Assembly: GCF_026210795.1 (NCBI RefSeq)
Contig: NC_089447.1
Coordinates: 312,501-376,500 of the forward strand
Reading direction: 5' to 3'
Origin: Rhizophagus irregularis
Lineage: Eukaryota > Glomeromycota > Glomeromycetes > Glomerales > Glomeraceae
DNA: 64,000 nt
Of this stretch, positions 42,948 through 64,000 are shown piece after piece. The notes below the pieces were generated by a model, which was not told where the DNA came from, ran no database searches, and saw nothing but the letters and a program-made list of their open reading frames with translations. Position numbers and translations under genes: made by a program. Numbering within the stretch: the stretch's first letter is position 1; each line of letters begins with the position of its first letter.

Positions 42948-44138
42948 TTAAATTATACAATCATTCAAATCTTCAGTTATGCCGGTAGAAGAATAACTTC
43001 CACTTTCAAGAATTTCATTCAATTTTTCACTAGTAAAATTAAGTAGACGACTTGTATAACATGCTTGTGGATGAGGTTCAGCAGTATTAAGATTGTTATG
43101 CCCAATTTGTGCATTTATAAATTCCATTTTGTTATTTTCTAATTCTTCATTAATTTCATTACTAGTAGGCTGGAAAATCCAATTTCCAATAACATATTTC
43201 ACTTCTGATACAGATGGCCTTTTTAATGGATCTTCATTCCAACATTTTTTCATTAACTCCATATAACATTTTGGAGTATTTTCAATAATTTTAGGACGTT
43301 CGCCTTTACAAATACTTAAACTAAGCTGAAGATCATGTGTTCTATCATTAAATGGTGGAACTCCAGATGTAAATTCCCACATAATCATAGAAAAACTATA
43401 AATATCACTAGCTGGAGTATAAGGTTTGCCTCTTAAAACTTCAGGTGCCATAAATGGTATAACTCCATAAATTTCACCTTTTTTTAAAGATGATTTTACA
43501 GGTTGACATAATCCTAAATCACTAATAAAAACTAAATTATTATCAACTTCATTTTCTTCCTCCTCTTCATCCTTTTTATTGCTGTGATTTAAAATATTGC
43601 CATCATGTAAATCACAATGAATAAAATCTTGTTTATGTATTTCATAAAGCCCAGAAATAATTTTATACAACATATTTAACTTTTGTTTCCAATTATATTT
43701 AATTACTTTAGTTAAATTTCCTCTTAAATTACCTTTATTTGCATAATCCATTACTACCATATAATACGAAGTATCTGAACTTTTTGTGAATCCATATAAA
43801 TTAATAATTTCATATGAATCTGAACAACTTTGATGATATTTCCACTATAAAAATGAAATAAGAAATGTACAATTAGTACAAGTAAAAATCAAATTAAAAA
43901 AATTAATATTGGTTATCATACTTCATTTAAAAATTCATCTAAATTTTCATTCAAATTATTGAAGCATTTAAGAACTACTTCTCTATTTTGATTTATATCT
44001 AACCAAATAGCTTTATATACAGTACTAATCCCTCCTTTATCAAGGTATACAACATTTGTAAATTTATCATAAGGAATCCATTTTAATCTTCTTTCAGAAA
44101 TAAATTTATCTAAAATTATATTTCCACTCTTTCCAAAT
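42948..44138 (-). CDS. TKL-type protein kinase, kinase-domain exons
   Basis: Two exons: 44138-43922 (N-lobe) and 43844-42948, with a 77-nt intron (donor GAA/gtatg, acceptor TTTATAG), phase 0. N-lobe: Gly loop LDKGGISTVYKAIW and lysine in EVVLKCF. Second exon: MVVMDYANKGNLRG hinge, catalytic HCDLHDGNIL, an acidic insert (EEEEENE), SDLGLCQP in place of DFG, PFMAPEVLRG, DIYSFSMIMWEF, and CWNEDPLKRPS, then a ~90-residue tail with CYTSRLLNFTS as in kinase 12030-14323. All core residues are present, so it could be active. The N-lobe exon begins at an acceptor with one base finishing a split codon and has no ATG before the kinase domain, so at least one upstream exon is needed. Upstream lies the microexon-like array (44213-48553). 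Confidence 0.85.
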
Positions 44139-47100
44139 CTATAATATAAATAATTAAAATTATAATAAAATTATCCTAAACTTTAGAATTAAAAAAACAA
44201 TTTAATACTTACCCTAAATTTAATTAGAAATACAATAACAAAAAATCTTAGTAATTATATAAATATATATATAAACTTATAATTTATAACTCACCCGCTA
44301 AAGTATCAAATATATATTAAAAAAAGAAGTATTTAGTTAATTTAAGTCAAATTCTATATAGATGTAATAATAAAAAAACAACTTACAAGAATCTAAAGTA
44401 AATTACAATTTTTAAAATAAAGAATTTAGTTAGTTAGTTCAAGTTATATATAAAGTTATAAATATGTAATAATAAAACTAAATAAATAACTTACTATCTG
44501 AAATAAAACACCAAAATAAAGAATTTAGATACTAGTTAGTTTAATTTATATGCAAATATCATATAAAATAATAAAATTAAATAAATAATTTACCACCTAT
44601 ATTTTAAACAATTTTTTAAATAAAGAATTTAGTTAGTTTAAATCATAAAATTGCTATGAGATTTCGCCGGCGTCACATGATTTTTAATAATATAAAATTT
44701 GTCACCCCGCGTCACACCCTCCTTGTTTCCGCTTTTACTATGTATTCTAGGGACAGAATTTGCTAATTCCGGCCAAATTTTATAATTCCGGCCAAAATTA
44801 AAAAATCACGTGATACCGGCGATAAATAGACTCCTTTAAATTATATGCAATAATGTAATAATAGAATTAAAAAATAACTTACGTGCTATATTATGAAATA
44901 ATTTTTTTAATGAAGAATTTAGTTAGTTAAATTATTATGCGATTATGTAATAATAGAATTAAAAAAATATCTTATAACTTACGAACTAAACGAAATAAAT
45001 GAAATTACAAAATAATTTTTTAAATAAAGAATTTAGATAGTTTAATGATGCAATAATAGAATATAATTAAATAACTTACTCCCTATATTACAAAATTATT
45101 TTTTAAATAAAGAATTTAGTTAGTTTAAATTATGTGCAAATATTATACAATTATGTAATGATACTTACGACCTAAAATAAATTACAAAATAATTTTTTAA
45201 ATAAAGAATTTAGTTAGTTTAAATTATATGCAAATATTATACAATTATGTAATGATACTTACGACCTAAATAAATTACAAAATAATTTTTTAAATAAAGA
45301 ATTTAGTTAGTTTAAATCATATGCAAATATTATACAATTATGTAATGATACTTACGACCTAAAATAAATTACAAAATAATTTTTTAAATAAAGAATTTAG
45401 TTAGTTTAGATTATATGCAAATATTATACAATTATGTAATGATACTTACAACCTAAAAGAAATTACAAAATAAGAATTTAGTTAGTTTAAATCATATGCA
45501 AATATTATACAATTATGTAATGATACTTACAATCTAAAAGAAATTACAAAATAATTTTAAATAAAGAATTTAGTTAGTTTAAATTATATGCAAATATTAT
45601 ACAATTATGCAATAATAGAATAGAATTAAATAACTTACTCCCTATATTACAAAATTATTTTTTAAATAAAGAATTTAGTTAGTTTAAATTATATGCAAAT
45701 ATTATACAATTATGTAATGATACTTACAACCTAAAAGAAATTACAAAATAATTTTTAAATAAAGAATTTAGTTAGTTTAAATTATATGCAAATATTATAC
45801 AATTATGCAATAATAGAATAGAATTAAATAACTTACTCCCTATATTACAAAATTATTTTTTAAATAAAGAATTTAGTTAGTTTAAATTATGTGCAAATAT
45901 TATATAATTATGTAATAATAGAATCAAAAAATAACTTACTTGCTATATTATGAAATAAATTTTAATAAAGAATTTAGTTAGTAGTTTAAATTATATGCAA
46001 ATATTATACAATTATGTAATGATACTTACGACCTAAATAAATTACAAAATAATTTTTTAAATAAAGAATTTAGTTAGTTTAAATTATATGCAGATATTAT
46101 ACAATTATGTAATAATAGAATTAAAAAATAACTTATAACTTACTTGCTATATTATGAAATAAGTTTTAATAAAGAATTTAGTTAGTTTAAATTATATGCA
46201 AATATTATACAATTATGTAATAATAGAATCAAAAAATAACTTATAACTTACCACCTAAAAGAAATTACAAAATAATTTTTTTTAAAAAAAAATTTAGAAA
46301 TATTATACAATTATGTAATAATAGAATTAAAAAATAACTTATAACTTACTTGCTATATTATGAAATAGTTTTAATAAAGAATTTAGTTAGTTTAAATTAT
46401 ATGCAAATATTATACAATTATGTAATACTAGAACAAAAAATAACTTATAACTTACAAACTAAAAGAAATTACAAAATAATTTTTAAAAAAAGAATTTAAT
46501 TAGTTTAAATTATATGCAAATATTATATAAATATGTAAAAATAGAATTAAAAATAACTTACAATCTATATTATGAATAAGTTTTAATAAAAATTTAGTTA
46601 GTTTATTTATATGCAAATATTATATAAAAATATGTAATAATAGAATTAAAAAATAACTAATAACTTATCACCTAAAAGAAATTACAAAATAATATTTTAA
46701 ATAAAGAATTTAGTGCAAATATTACACAATTATATAATAATAGAATTAAAAATGACTTTTAACTTACCATCTAAAAGAAATTACAAAACAATTGTTTAAA
46801 TAAAGAATTTAGTTAGTTTAAATTAGTTGCAAATATTATACAATTATGTCAAAAAATAACTTACAACCTACATTATGAAATAAGTTTTTAATAAAGAATT
46901 TAGTTAGTTTAAATTATTTGTAAAAATTAATTATACAATAATAGAAATAACTTATAACTTACAAACTAAAAGAAATTGCAAAAAAAATTTTAAATAAAGA
47001 ATTTAGTTAGTTTAAATTATATGTAAATATTATAACAATAAGTAATAATAGAATTAGGTAAATAATTTATAACTTACAAACTAAAAGAAATTGCAAGATA

Positions 47101-48543
47101 ATTTTAAATAAAGAATTTAGTTAGTTTAAATTATATGCAAATATTATACAATTATGTAATGATACTTACAACCTAAAAGAAATTACAAAATAATTTTTTA
47201 AATAAAGAATTTAGTTAGTTTAAATTATATGCAAATATTATACAATTATGTGATGATACTTACAACCTAAAAGAAATTACAAAATAATTTTTTAAATAAA
47301 GAATTTAGTTAGTTTAGATTATATGCAAATATTATATAATTATGTAATGATACTTACAACCTAAAAGAAATTACAAAATAATTTTTAAATAAAGAATTTG
47401 GTTAGTTTAAATTATATGCAAATATTATATGATTATACAATAATAATAGAATTAAACTTACAAACTATATTATGAAATAAGTTTTAATAAAGAATTTAGT
47501 TAGTTTAAATTATATGCAAATATTATACAATTATACAATAATAGAAATAACTTGTAACTTACAAACTAAAAGAAATTGCAAAATAATTTTTAAATAAAGA
47601 ATTTAGTTAGTTTAAATTGTATGCAAATATTATATAATTATGTAATGATACTTACGACCTAAAATAAATTACAAAATAATTTTTTAAATAAAGAATTTAG
47701 TTAGTTTAAATATATGCAAATATTATATGATTATACAATAATAATAGAATTAAACTTACAAACTATATTATGAAATAAGTTTTAATAAAGAATTTAGTTA
47801 GTTTAAATTATATGCAAATATTATACAATTATACAATAATAGAAATAACTTATACTTACAAACTAAAAGAAATTGCAAAATAATTTTTAAATAAAGAATT
47901 TAGTTAGTTTAAATTATATGCAAATATTATACAATTATGTAATAATAGAATAGAATTAAATAACTTACTCCCTATATATATTACAAAATTATTTTTTAAA
48001 TAAAGAATTTGGTTAGTAGTTTAAATTATATGCAAATATTATACAATTATGTAATGATACTTACAACCTAAATAAATTACAAAATAATTTTTTAAATAAA
48101 GAATTTAGTTAGTTTAAATTATATGCAAATATTATACAATTATGTAATGATACTTACAACCTAAAAGAAATTACAAATAATTTTTTAAATAAAGAATTTA
48201 GTTAGTTTAAATTATATGCAAATATTATACAATTATGTAATGATACTTACAATCTAAAAGAAATTACAAAATAATTTTTTAAATAAAGAATTTAGTTAGT
48301 TTAGATTATATGCAAATCTTATATGATTATACAATAATAGAATTAAACTTACTTGCTATATTATGAAATAAGGTTTAATAAAGAATTTAGTTAGTTTAAA
48401 TTATATATACAATTATGTAATAATAGAATTAAAAAATAACTTACGTGCTATATTATGAAATAAGTTTTAATAAAAAATTTAGTTAGTTTAAATTGCATGC
48501 AAATATTATACAATTATGTAATAATAGGATTAATAAACAATAC
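44139..48543 (-). repeat. Tandem array of ~42 intron-like units separated by 3-nt microexon candidates
   Basis: On the minus strand each 81-115 nt unit reads: donor GTAAGT, then a part ending ATTGTATAATATTTGC, a branch-site-like TTTAAACTAACTAAATTC, an A/T-rich run and an acceptor TTTTAG or ATATAG; then three bases and the next GTAAGT. Central triplets in transcript order include CAC 48445, CAA 48353, ATT 48251, GTT 48158, GTT 48065, GGA 47969, TTT 47860, TTT 47760, GTC 47656 and so on to GTG 44594, ATA 44495, ATTCTT 44387, CGG 44295, G 44213 (lower coordinate given). By my count 39 of 42 donors are exact GTAAGT; 44594 has GTAAAT, 44295 GTGAGT, 46669 ATAAGT. Spacing matches the 68-77 nt introns of the kinase genes only roughly. 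Whether these triplets are spliced into mRNA is not known from sequence. Confidence 0.8.
44647..44834. mobile_element. MITE inserted in one array unit
   Basis: About 188 bp between TTTAAATCAT (44637-44646) and TTTAAATTAT (44835-44844). Arms: CGCCGGCGTCACATGATTTT against the complement of AAAATCACGTGATACCGGCG. The core has two ATTCCGGCCAAA motifs. It enlarges one intron-like unit to ~286 nt without touching its donor, branch-like site or acceptor. Confidence 0.65.
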
Positions 48544-48553
48544 CCCGAGCCAT
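48544..48553 (-). CDS. Candidate first coding exon of the array kinase (ATGGCTCGGG)
   Basis: The last array unit, read upstream, is homologous to the others up to GTATTG at 48543, which replaces the GTAAGT donor. Directly before it is ATGGCTCGGG with an in-frame TAA just upstream. Ten coding bases (phase 1), then 3-nt multiples, then the single G at 44213, then the A that opens the N-lobe exon, restore the kinase frame exactly. The assignment is an inference from frame and position. Confidence 0.5.
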
Positions 48554-58870: not shown

Positions 58871-60312
58871 TCAACATCTTGTAACTTGATGAATATCACT
58901 TACATTTTGGCGATCACATGCCAAGTCATTGGTTTGCGTTGTTATTACATTGTTATCGACATTACTATTATGCGAATCTATGTCCTCATAATTATTGTTG
59001 ATATGATTAACTTGATGAATATCATTTATATCTTGGTGATCGCATGTCAAGTCATTAGCTTGTGTTGTCGTTACATTGTTTTCAATATTTTCATTATGCG
59101 AATCTGTACCTCTATAATTGTTGTTGATATGATTAACTTGATGAATATCATTTGTATTTTGGTGATCGCATGTCAAGCCATTAGCTTGCGAAGTCGTTAC
59201 ATTGTTTTCAATATTTTCATTATACGAGTTCCCATAATTATTATTAAAGTCAACTTGTTGCTGTGATTGGTGAATATCATTTATGTCTTGGTAATCGTAC
59301 GTCAAGCCGTTAGCTTGTGTTGTCATCACATTATTTCTGATATTTCCACCATACAAATCTGTGTCTCTACAATTATTGTTGAGATCAACTTGTTGCCATG
59401 TGTAGGCAAAATTTCTTGTTCTATTTACGTTTTGGCTATCATTACCATGATTAATATCTGTTGTCAAAACAGATTGTGTTACGGGTGTATTATTTACAAT
59501 ACTTCATGAAACGATCCCATTTCTCTATCAGTAATGTGTAGTGAAATATTATTGAAATCAATTTGTTGTTGTGAATTAGTAGTGACATTATGAATAACTC
59601 TATTTTGTGGTGCCGCAGATGTTGAAAAAGGATTGATGGATTGAAGGAAACCATTGCCTTGGCTATTGGTGATCGAAACTGCTTGTGTTGTTATTACATT
59701 ATTTCCGATATTTCCACAAAATGAATTTGCATTTCCATTATTACCTGGTCTTTTGGGAATTTGTTGCGGTATACTATTGAAATTACCTTGTTGTGAACTG
59801 GTAACATTATTTGTATAATATCCAACTTCAATTGGTTTAGAGAAATTATTATCAAAATTAGTTTGACTATCCCCTATTGAAATTGTTTGAGTATTATATC
59901 CGTAAGGAGAATTTAGGTTTCGATTAGAATTCATTCTTAATTCTCTATTAGAAGTATGATGTTGTGTAAGATGAAAAGGAAGGATTCGTTCCAAATCTTG
60001 TTCCAAATTCAATTTTTGATGCAAAGATACTACTTCTTTTCGTTCCGAATTATTTATACCAATATCTATTCCGTATGTTTTTCTGTTCAACATGTTTGCG
60101 ATCAAAGAATGTGGTAGTATCTCACATGTGATATAATAATTTTCTGTATGATTAATATTATAAAAAAATCCATGATCATAATTGTGGTCATCAAAGAAGT
60201 CAGAACCTTGTAAAATAATTTGGCAAGTTATATGATAAAACTTATCATAATTTGGTGCATAATGAAAAAATTTATGTTCATTAATTTGTAACTTTGCGTA
60301 ATGGATTGAATA
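58871..60312 (-). pseudogene. Family S-type domain followed by Asn/Gln-rich 42-residue repeats, frameshifted
   Basis: Open from after a TGA at 60313. The first ~75 codons are a diverged family S domain: KFFHYAPNYDKFYHITCQII, FFDDHNYDHGFFYNIN, ENYYITCEILPHSLIANMLN and SLHQKLNLEQDL. No ATG precedes the domain in frame, so the start is lost or in an unseen exon. The Asn/Gln/Ser-rich tail ends at 59494; a second frame (from about 59505 to 58871) continues with at least four 42-residue repeats of the type NNVTTTQANDLTCDHQ, then DINDIHQVNHINNNY. The two frames overlap out of phase, implying one frameshift near 59490. It could be an active gene if that shift is an assembly error and an upstream exon exists. 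Confidence 0.6.
58880..59400. repeat. 126-bp coding tandem repeat, about four copies
   Basis: CTTGATGAATATCA recurs at 58885, 59011 and 59137, with a variant near 59265, so the period is 126, 126 and about 129 bp, each a multiple of three. Each unit encodes ~42 Asn/Asp/Gln/Thr-rich residues on the minus strand. Confidence 0.8.
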
Positions 60313-62026: not shown

Positions 62027-64000
62027 TTATATATAATATAATACATTTATGTAATGAATATTAATTTGCCAATTCTCATTATATAGTTGCAAAACGTATG
62101 CAAATGTAGGATCAATAAAAATATTTCCTGGATGAAGATCTTTATGAATTAACCCATGAACATGAATATTATTAAGTGCAAGACAAATATCATATATTTT
62201 ATTTAATCTTTGATCCCATGTAATATTATTAGCAGTTCGTTCAAGATATTTTCGTAAATCGCCATTTTCCATATATTGTAATACTAACGCATAATTGTTA
62301 GTAATAGGATCTTGAGTAATTCCAAAACATTTTACTATACACATATAACCACTAACTTCGTTAAGAAAGTTTATCTATAAATATATAATTAAATATTAAT
62401 TTGTAAATTAAAAAGTAATTTATTTTACTATTTTACGTACCTCATTTAGAAAATCTCCACTTATATTTTTTGAATTATTCAATACTTTTAAAGCGATTTT
62501 TATTGTTTCATTTCTTTTCCAATTATTAGAAAATTGACTCCACTTTTCAATTGGTCCATCTTTCCATATAGCTGAATATACTTTTGCAAAACCTCCTTTA
62601 GCAATGTAATTAATATTCGTAAATTTATCAGATGAAATCCATTCTAATAATCCGTACTTTCTGCCTATATTTTGATTGTATTGTATCAACTTATCAATAA
62701 CCTCATTCCTACTGGTCCGCTTATCAAAATCTCTTTGAAAATGTTTAGGATTGCAGGATAAACAACCATCCAAATCCTCATGTATCTTTAGACATTCTTT
62801 ACATTTTCCAAAATCCATACGTTTTTTTCAATAATATCAATTTCTTTATCATAACAATCACAGCAATAAGAACGAAGTTTACGCCAACAATTATGTACTC
62901 TATTATATCTTATATTATTTATAAGAATTTTCTTATTATCTACATAATTTTTCGTGTTTTCAAATTGTTGTATTATTTGTTTAAATATTCCTAAATTACT
63001 ATTTAATTTAAAATAAACGTTTTTGTAATCTATTAAAATAGATTGTAATTCTTTTAATTCTCTTAATTCTTTCGTTTCTTTTTTGTATACTTTAAAATAA
63101 AAATTTTCATAATCTTGTAATTTAGAGGATAATTCTCTCATTTCTTTATCAAAGCACTCATAACAATAATTATAATGATACTTTCTATCACACTTCTCAC
63201 ATAAAATATAATCGAAGTTCTTGTATTTTACTCGTCTATCATCTTCATCTAAATCATAATCTGAAATTCCAATTTTTGATTCTATAAATACATTATTTTC
63301 ATTAATCCATTTACTAAAATTTTCCAAAAATTGCTTAAATTCATAAAATGAACAACAATCATCATTATTTCCTATAAAACATACTTTACATCTATTAATT
63401 ATTATTTGATTATTATGATAACAATAATTACAATTATAATATTGCTTTTTTATTTCATTGTTACATTTTTCACATACAATATGACCATAATTTTTATATT
63501 TTACTTTTCTTTCTTCTAAATTTAAATTATAATCGAATGTCTCAAAAATTCTAAAATTTGGTCCAAATTTCATATGACTCTTTACAATAACATCAGTTTC
63601 TTTATCATGACAATACGCACAATAATAATAGTGTTTATTAATTTCTTGATTACATTTTTCACATAAAATACCATCAAGATTCATATATTTTGCTCTTCTT
63701 TCTTTTAAATTTAAGTTATAATCTAAAATTCCAAAATTTGATCCAAATGTCATATGCCTTTTTTTATTAGTATCAGTTTCTCTATCATAACAATAAGTGC
63801 AATAATAGTGATGTTTTTTAATTTCTTTATTGCACTCTTCACATAAAATGCCATCAAATTTCCCATATTTTGCTCTTCTTCCTTCCAAATCTAAATTATA
63901 ATATGATGTCTTAAATATTCCAAAATTTGATTCAAATTTCATATGCCCTTTTTTATTAGTATCGGTTTCTTTATCATAGCAATAAGTGCAATAAATATAG
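62027..64000 (-). pseudogene. Protein kinase gene with zinc-finger-like repeats; frameshifted, truncated, runs off window
   Basis: The frame is open to the window edge, so the start is outside. The N-terminal part (64000-62820) holds at least four ~61-residue repeats with CEEC/CEKC..YYCTYCYDxETD, i.e. CxxC pairs spaced like zinc ribbons. In a 7-base A run (62822-62828 on the plus strand as T) the frame slips; the next frame continues MDFGKCKECLKIHEDLDGC, then Gly loop IAKGGFAKVYSAIW and ALKVL. A 3' part after an intron (donor GAG/gtacg near 62439, acceptor near 62384) gives IVKCFGITQDP, MENGDLRKYLE and HKDLHPGNIF. It then leaves the kinase pattern before DFG and stops at 62027. The activation loop and C-lobe are missing, so it is inactive as a kinase. 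Confidence 0.75.

Follow-up and report, generated by a model that had tools for sequence, protein, structure and literature searches.

Introduction

Schistosomes possess micro-exon genes (MEGs), in which exons of 6-36 nucleotides (nt) lie in consecutive series and whose products are short secreted proteins without an enzyme domain. These genes, named for their tiny exons, are described as highly variable, and MEG-2.1 as alternatively spliced (PMC10399815). Tiny exons and high variability likewise come together in the subject of the present analysis, an array of putative microexons (44139..48543, minus strand) at the start of a protein kinase gene in a 64,000-nt stretch of the Rhizophagus irregularis genome (hereafter the window; positions 312,501 to 376,500 of contig NC_089447.1, NCBI RefSeq assembly GCF_026210795.1). 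Here, however, there is one codon per exon, no sign of skipping is found, and a protein kinase domain lies downstream of this and related arrays, where MEG products have no enzyme domain. R. irregularis is a soil fungus that lives with plant roots as an arbuscular mycorrhizal symbiont.

Exons of 3 nt and 1 nt are known as single cases, whereas here they would stand by the dozen in a row and in many paralogues. A single-nucleotide exon has been described in Arabidopsis (PMC4674806), and the 1-nt exon of Fusarium CYP621A has been presented as the second such case overall and the first among fungal genes (PMC12940212). Those genes need a 1-nt exon for their frame, as is predicted for the arrays, but one such exon is described in each, whereas a predicted terminal 1-nt microexon stands at 17 of the 17 array 3' ends found, beside dozens of 3-nt exons. 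Similarly, the alternatively spliced 3-bp micro-exon of Drosophila homothorax (PMC7392893) is a single exon, where the kinase arrays hold a series of them. A classical recursive splice site has acceptor and donor adjoining, with no bases left behind. Recursive splicing is described as the stepwise removal of very long introns at internal splice sites (PMC13149111); in the arrays, by contrast, there is a 3-nt spacer, three bases would be kept at each step, and the triplets behave as codons. Fungal introner-like elements and stwintrons form families of sequence-similar introns (PMC4457414, PMC9024468) that have multiplied at separate positions or nested within one another, whereas the present introns stand in tandem with a codon between copies. 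Among the open-licence PMC papers listed, no arrays of 3-nt exons and no such microexons in Rhizophagus were found. The elements of the layout are thus known singly, and the expandable codon-per-exon layout is considered categorically new.

The data presented below support, with a probability of about 0.92, a reading in which the array forms the first coding part of a kinase gene, divided into one-codon exons that would be joined in order and translated in phase 1. Computation establishes the layout, its recurrence in a kinase family, the closure of the reading frame, and an avoidance of stop codons that is confined to neighbouring exons in the right order and phase.

Results

Layout of the window array

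A dynamic-programming parse of the minus strand from 48543 to 44139 recovers 42 microexons (40 of 3 nt, one of 6 nt and one of 1 nt) and hence 43 introns, in agreement with an initial annotation of this locus that had described 42 intron-like units with 3-nt spacers, one of six and one of one. The exact GTAAGT that it had counted at 39 of 42 donors is likewise reproduced; the three deviating donors are ATAAGT (unit at 46671, with the +1 base changed), GTAAAT (44596) and GTGAGT (44297), and between 43900 and 48600 GTAAGT occurs 39 times on the array strand and 0 times on the opposite strand. The unit at 46671 reads TTTTAG-GTG-ATAAGT, a change that may lead to skipping of its codon or to use of a zero-length junction, AG|GTGATA, with the frame intact both ways. 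The parser charged a penalty of 4 bits for microexon lengths other than 3; in a penalty-free count over 14 other loci, chosen for unit likeness, the spacer between the nearest AG and GTAAGT is 3 nt in 440 of 478 cases. From acceptor to acceptor most units measure 81-115 nt, as had been annotated, with a single exception of 289 nt that had gone unmentioned. The intron of this unit contains insertion-like foreign sequence of ~190 nt (44640..44830, approximate boundaries, minus strand), which is unrelated to the array and GC-richer and leaves donor and acceptor intact; terminal inverted repeats were looked for in it and none were found. Comparable insertions were seen by eye in array introns of nine related loci (L040, L041, L043, L044, L045, L047, L051, L055 and L056).

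Upstream, the array adjoins a 10-nt first coding exon, ATGGCTCGGG (48544..48553, minus strand), which ends in phase 1 and carries the donor GTATTG; its ATGG(C/G)TC start is also present at related loci L053, L054 and L056. Downstream follow, on the same strand, a 217-nt exon encoding the kinase N-lobe (43922..44138), which opens with the split base A of a GGA codon and continues TTTGGAAAGAGTGG, and an 897-nt last coding exon (42948..43844), which holds the remainder of the kinase domain and ends in TAA at 42948. Because the preceding exon ends in phase 1 and the kinase exon opens with a split-codon base, the frame of the array would be fixed if neighbours are joined, and each codon would consist of the last base of one microexon and the first two of the next. 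The full chain of microexons would contribute 127 nt. The 6-nt microexon, ATTCTT (44387..44392, minus strand), has an identical counterpart near the 3' end of L039, L049 and L050, and the terminal 1-nt microexon, a G (44213..44213, minus strand), puts the chain into the kinase frame. Joined in this way, the exons read as an open protein of 416 amino acids, with matches above the curated cut-offs to PK_Tyr_Ser-Thr (PF07714; E 5.1e-41, 141.1 bits, cut-off 23.1) and Pkinase (PF00069; E 8.4e-39, 134 bits, cut-off 31.7).

Recurrence in a kinase gene family

The initial annotation had correctly placed a microexon array upstream of a kinase but had treated it as a single gene, whereas such one-codon exon arrays characterise a family of kinase genes that is spread over many chromosomes. 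In the genome (146.7 Mb, 32 contigs), searched for spacers of 1-5 nt, TTTTAG-N3-GTAAGT occurs at 1153 sites versus 96 for a reversed-pattern control, while spacers of 4-5 nt fall below control (84 versus 271) and those of 1-2 nt lie near it (233 versus 211), such that among these lengths enrichment is found at 3 nt only. Nineteen arrays, from 18 loci plus the window, were parsed in full or in part and form the sample used throughout. The parse yielded 794 units: 757 of 3 nt, 14 of 6 nt, 17 of 1 nt and 6 others. Cleaning, in which seven 6-nt units were re-read as 3 nt owing to a second AG or GT, and L052 (the same place as L057) and path elements beyond the first 1-nt unit were left out of the counts, gave 790 units, of which 764 of 3 nt and 7 of 6 nt form consecutive, frame-keeping series; one 6-nt unit, TACATA in L051, sits in inserted sequence and may be false.

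Within the sequence examined, a kinase lies downstream of the array in 17 of the 19. The array of L047 reaches the edge of its locus, with a listed kinase exon ~2.8 kb past the last parsed unit; for L057 a listed kinase exon lies ~6.4 kb past the last parsed unit. The parse of L057 (G000:C24:2838000-2846999) stops after 11 units, with the 4 kb of the locus from 5013 on remaining, possibly because a large insertion intervenes or the 3' portion has been lost. A kinase exon motif, adopted in place of a 42-place pattern that was not accepted, matches 132 sites with at most 3 mismatches (control 0), and among the 40 kinase exons listed on contigs C1-C9 a strict 1-nt junction lies within 160 nt upstream in 27. 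Matches to the repeat unit number at least 166 genome-wide; those listed fall, by hand grouping, at 28 places, 25 of which have a listed kinase exon downstream of them in the same orientation.

Of the 19 arrays, all 17 whose 3' end was found are closed by a predicted 1-nt microexon (A in 16, G in the window), with a GTAAGT donor at 15 of these terminal microexons. The 5' units CTC/CTT-TTG-ATG/AAA-ATT-GGT and the 3' units CTT-TTG-A are common to many, though not all, paralogues. Second kinase-like matches were noted downstream of the array kinase in L043 (9688) and L054 (6716). As a marker of array-less family members, TTTTAG-A-GTAAGT was tried and rejected, the sampled site being ordinary coding sequence followed by a donor. 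That site (L058) belongs to a cluster of about twenty TTTTAGAGTAAGT sites at G000:C5:3.58-3.83 Mb and lies in what is by eye a BTB-like gene, unrelated to the kinase arrays; because it is BTB-like coding sequence, the count of TTTTAG-A-GTAAGT is not a count of 1-nt exons.

Stop codons across exon junctions

Given the frame that the flanking exons impose, a stop codon would arise wherever a T-ending microexon precedes a neighbour starting with AA, AG or GA. Pairs across gaps of more than 140 nt (19 gaps, of which ~13 hold insertions by eye and the others decayed or altered units) were left out, as were those involving the single 0-nt unit or the single 2-nt unit. A neighbour starting with AA, AG or GA follows 0 of 196 T-ending microexons versus 123 of 536 with another last base (Fisher p=3e-19). 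Skipping one unit (lag +2) abolishes the avoidance (31/177 after T versus 90/519 otherwise), at lag +3 stops are likewise not depleted (34/169 after T), and in reversed order (lag -1) the avoidance is again gone (38/188 versus 85/544). MEG-type alternative skipping would therefore seem not to operate in the arrays, as stop avoidance is absent at lags of +2 and beyond. Shuffling the order of units within arrays 2000 times produced on average 26.5 stop-making pairs (standard deviation 4.0), and never fewer than 14.

The result holds for distinct ordered pairs only (359 pairs; 0/96 versus 60/263, p=1e-9), for strict TAG-NNN-GTAAGT units only (0/130 versus 87/358, p=8e-14), and without loci L040, L041, L042 and L044 (0/162 versus 66/388). 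At the same T-ending junctions the sense codons TGG (51) and TAT (40) are frequent. A further array that is not part of the sample, L032, has stops in 0 of its 5 T-ending pairs, and 4 of 10 others start with AA, AG or GA. Stop avoidance of this order- and phase-specific kind argues that each one-codon exon is joined to the next in sequence and that the product is translated; for exons ~95 nt apart to show such mutual dependence, no explanation is apparent except that they would meet in the mRNA and be translated in phase 1.

Frame closure and phase

Upstream exon or exons, all parsed microexons and the kinase exon join into an open reading with 0 stops in 7 of 7 cases (the window and six loci in which the upstream exon was named by eye). 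The reading starts at an ATG in three of these (the window, L053 and L054) and was begun inside the upstream exon in the other four. In 16 of 17 arrays the split base immediately follows the kinase acceptor, the exception being L056, and the predicted 1-nt exon fits in both sequence and frame in 16 of 17. Amino acids are used most evenly in phase 1 (4.15 bits, versus 3.30 in phase 0 and 3.78 in phase 2). With the stop test across the 19 arrays, this closure lends strong support to the suggestion, made when the locus was annotated, that the array may be spliced as ~40 microexons. The longest array seen, L041 (G000:C16:1442500-1452499), comprises 74 three-nt units plus one 2-nt and some decayed units; it is likely a frame-broken gene or an assembly error, while its close paralogue L042 reads open.

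Splice signals and variation of the triplets

Splice signals are kept across the sample: donors are GTAAGT in 680 of 788 units, and in 480 of 757 units CTAAC precedes the acceptor by 10-70 nt, versus 51 of 1827 control windows. The triplet base beside the donor, on the other hand, is evenly used (T 194, A 202, C 166, G 202). Changes were counted by parsimony on trees built without the sites counted, which gave ~290, 205 and 330 changes at triplet positions 1, 2 and 3 (763 units) versus a median of 36 and a maximum of 137 in 63 flank columns; these columns, with more than 90% occupancy, represent the more conserved part of the intron. The annotation of the triplet as the most variable part of the unit is thus supported; the triplet changes at several times the rate of the flanks, suggesting that the region is diversifying rapidly. 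The middle base of the triplet, slowest of the three, is in phase 1 the third codon position. This is the opposite of ordinary coding sequence and could fit selection for amino-acid change, with composition bias as an alternative.

The held-out trees replaced a count of unit pairs with 110 identical flank bases. There are 86 such pairs, in 74% of which the triplet differs, and they had been considered as proof of hypermutation; this was rejected because a single 12-unit group in L041 and L044 yields 66 of the 86, so that the pairs are over-counted. In two-member groups with identical flanks, the triplet is common to both members in 16 of 17. L041 and L042, whose kinase exons are identical at 210 of 216 positions, hold 74 and 34 three-nt units, respectively; arrays therefore seem to grow or shrink quickly.

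Public protein models

Where an organism is named, the best public matches listed for the kinase are proteins of Rhizophagus. P0040 is identical to locus L048 on contig C22 across the aligned parts, and P0088 contains a string that resembles phase 1. Gene models of R. irregularis and R. diaphanus contain strings that look like chained codons, mostly in phase 0, and the public N termini are inconsistent within the kinase family.

Discussion

Taken as the split coding start of a kinase gene, the array allows a model of its expression to be drawn. The pre-mRNA would lose ~43 short introns with near-perfect splice signals, and the near-perfect donors and branch motif would enable each short intron to be removed by intron definition. 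The 42 microexons would be joined in genomic order, generally with none skipped, and translated in phase 1, such that every amino acid of the segment would be encoded across an exon-exon junction and the 1-nt last microexon would set the frame of the kinase exon. Removal probably proceeds stepwise from 5' to 3', with the growing exon gaining three bases per step, since a 3-nt exon hardly leaves room for two splice complexes at once. The exon bases themselves may be free to vary because the strong GTAAGT and intronic signals suffice. Units of intron plus codon may multiply by tandem or segmental duplication, and their codons may diverge fast, providing each kinase with its own N-terminal segment. 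As a guess, this fast-changing segment may act in recognition or in regulation of the kinase. A broader proposal, to which we would give somewhat less than even odds, is that the family represents a codon-per-exon diversity system, in which duplicable intron-plus-codon cassettes expand, contract and change codons under strong constraint on their splice signals, yielding new N termini in which amino acids are used nearly evenly and which possibly serve to recognise self, non-self or partners.

Several findings weigh against the proposed joining and translation in phase 1. If pairs across gaps of more than 140 nt are included, the stop test gives 1/198 versus 124/552 (p=2e-17), the one stop-making pair being that of L050, across a decayed acceptor. 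Stops are slightly depleted at lag -2 (23/182 versus 97/514, p=0.034) and at lag -3 (22/170, p=0.057), so a little structure unrelated to coding is present. The window array alone gives 0/19 and 0/20 and is uninformative for the test because it contains no triplet starting with AA, AG or GA. Read back from the kinase exon, all arrays together contain 15 stops in 777 codons: 13 in L041, where a 2-nt microexon breaks the frame, one in L050 at the decayed acceptor, and one in L056 with its disturbed 3' end. It is thus probable that some of the arrays are broken. Stops are nearly lacking in phase 0 as well, with 1 in 764 (expectation 4.4 from dinucleotides, 38 with an independent first base), and as stop counts alone cannot decide between two almost stop-free phases, phase assignment on that basis was dropped and the neighbour-dependence test used for the decision. 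Of the public proteins, P0001, whose kinase exon is near that of L039, omits the array, and P0042, P0025, P0070 and P0041 seem to chain the one-codon exons in phase 0. Finally, a search of public proteins with the joined phase-1 peptides from 12 arrays gave no match at E<=10 among 3699 candidates. Gene finders that are blind to 3-nt exons could account for this absence, which nevertheless lends the proposal no support.

Among the alternatives, the one that fares best concerns origin only and is compatible with one-codon exons translated in phase 1. Intron copies may have invaded a coding exon at every third base, in the manner of introners, as is suggested by the loose tie between triplets and flanks in the flank-identical pairs, most of them from the one 12-unit group. 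However, the shared triplet in nearly all two-member groups is what duplication predicts, and the listed unit matches lie overwhelmingly upstream of listed kinase exons, although some dispersed copies may exist; an introner origin is therefore unlikely, if still worth considering. It is considerably less probable that the array forms a combinatorial N terminus, as the initial annotation had also offered, with many functional combinations of skipped and retained units. Since almost every unit is 3 nt long, any skip would be frame-neutral, but this option is disfavoured because joins that skip units lack stop avoidance.

Slightly less probable again is translation in phase 0, with each triplet itself a codon and a last microexon of 5 nt (AGTAA). 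In addition to the near-absence of stops, phase 0 has in its favour that the strings in P0042, P0025, P0070 and P0041 end in SK before (F/S)GKS, and that triplet position 3 is then the most variable codon position. However, it gives no reason for the avoidance of stops between neighbours in phase 1, the upstream exons read all end in phase 1, and the 5-nt version requires weak donors (GTATTA, GTAATA and the like) where the 1-nt version has GTAAGT at nearly every terminal microexon. A ladder of recursive splice points for one long intron, with the triplets as by-products that are not kept, had likewise been put forward in the annotation. The AG-NNN-GT layout, the strong donors and the step of ~95 nt would suit such a ladder; it is nevertheless very improbable, because the triplets behave as translated codons, as seen in the neighbour stop avoidance and in frame closure with a 1-nt last exon, and the spacer is 3 nt rather than 0. 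What is plausible is stepwise 5'-to-3' removal that leaves one codon per step. Least probable of all is a minisatellite or pseudogene region that only resembles introns, which tandem arrays, decayed units and the broken frame of L041 might suggest, but neutral repeats would not yield order- and phase-specific stop avoidance across introns or keep splice signals while triplets change, as the annotation had argued in doubting simple minisatellite decay.

If one-codon exons are indeed joined and translated in this family, they would challenge current views on how small an exon can be and still be defined by the spliceosome, and would provide a natural system for the study of stepwise splicing. 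The annotated N termini of a large kinase family in a model mycorrhizal fungus would then be either absent or misread, since 3-nt exons tend to escape read mappers and gene finders. Short (Illumina) and long (Nanopore) RNA reads of R. irregularis DAOM197198 have been published, the long ones having been mapped with minimap2 map-ont (PMC10234402). That mapping would be expected to miss 3-nt exons. Elsewhere in the window, two further tandem repeats are present, at 58882-59382 (126 bp x 4.0) and 63413-63994 (189 bp x 3.1).

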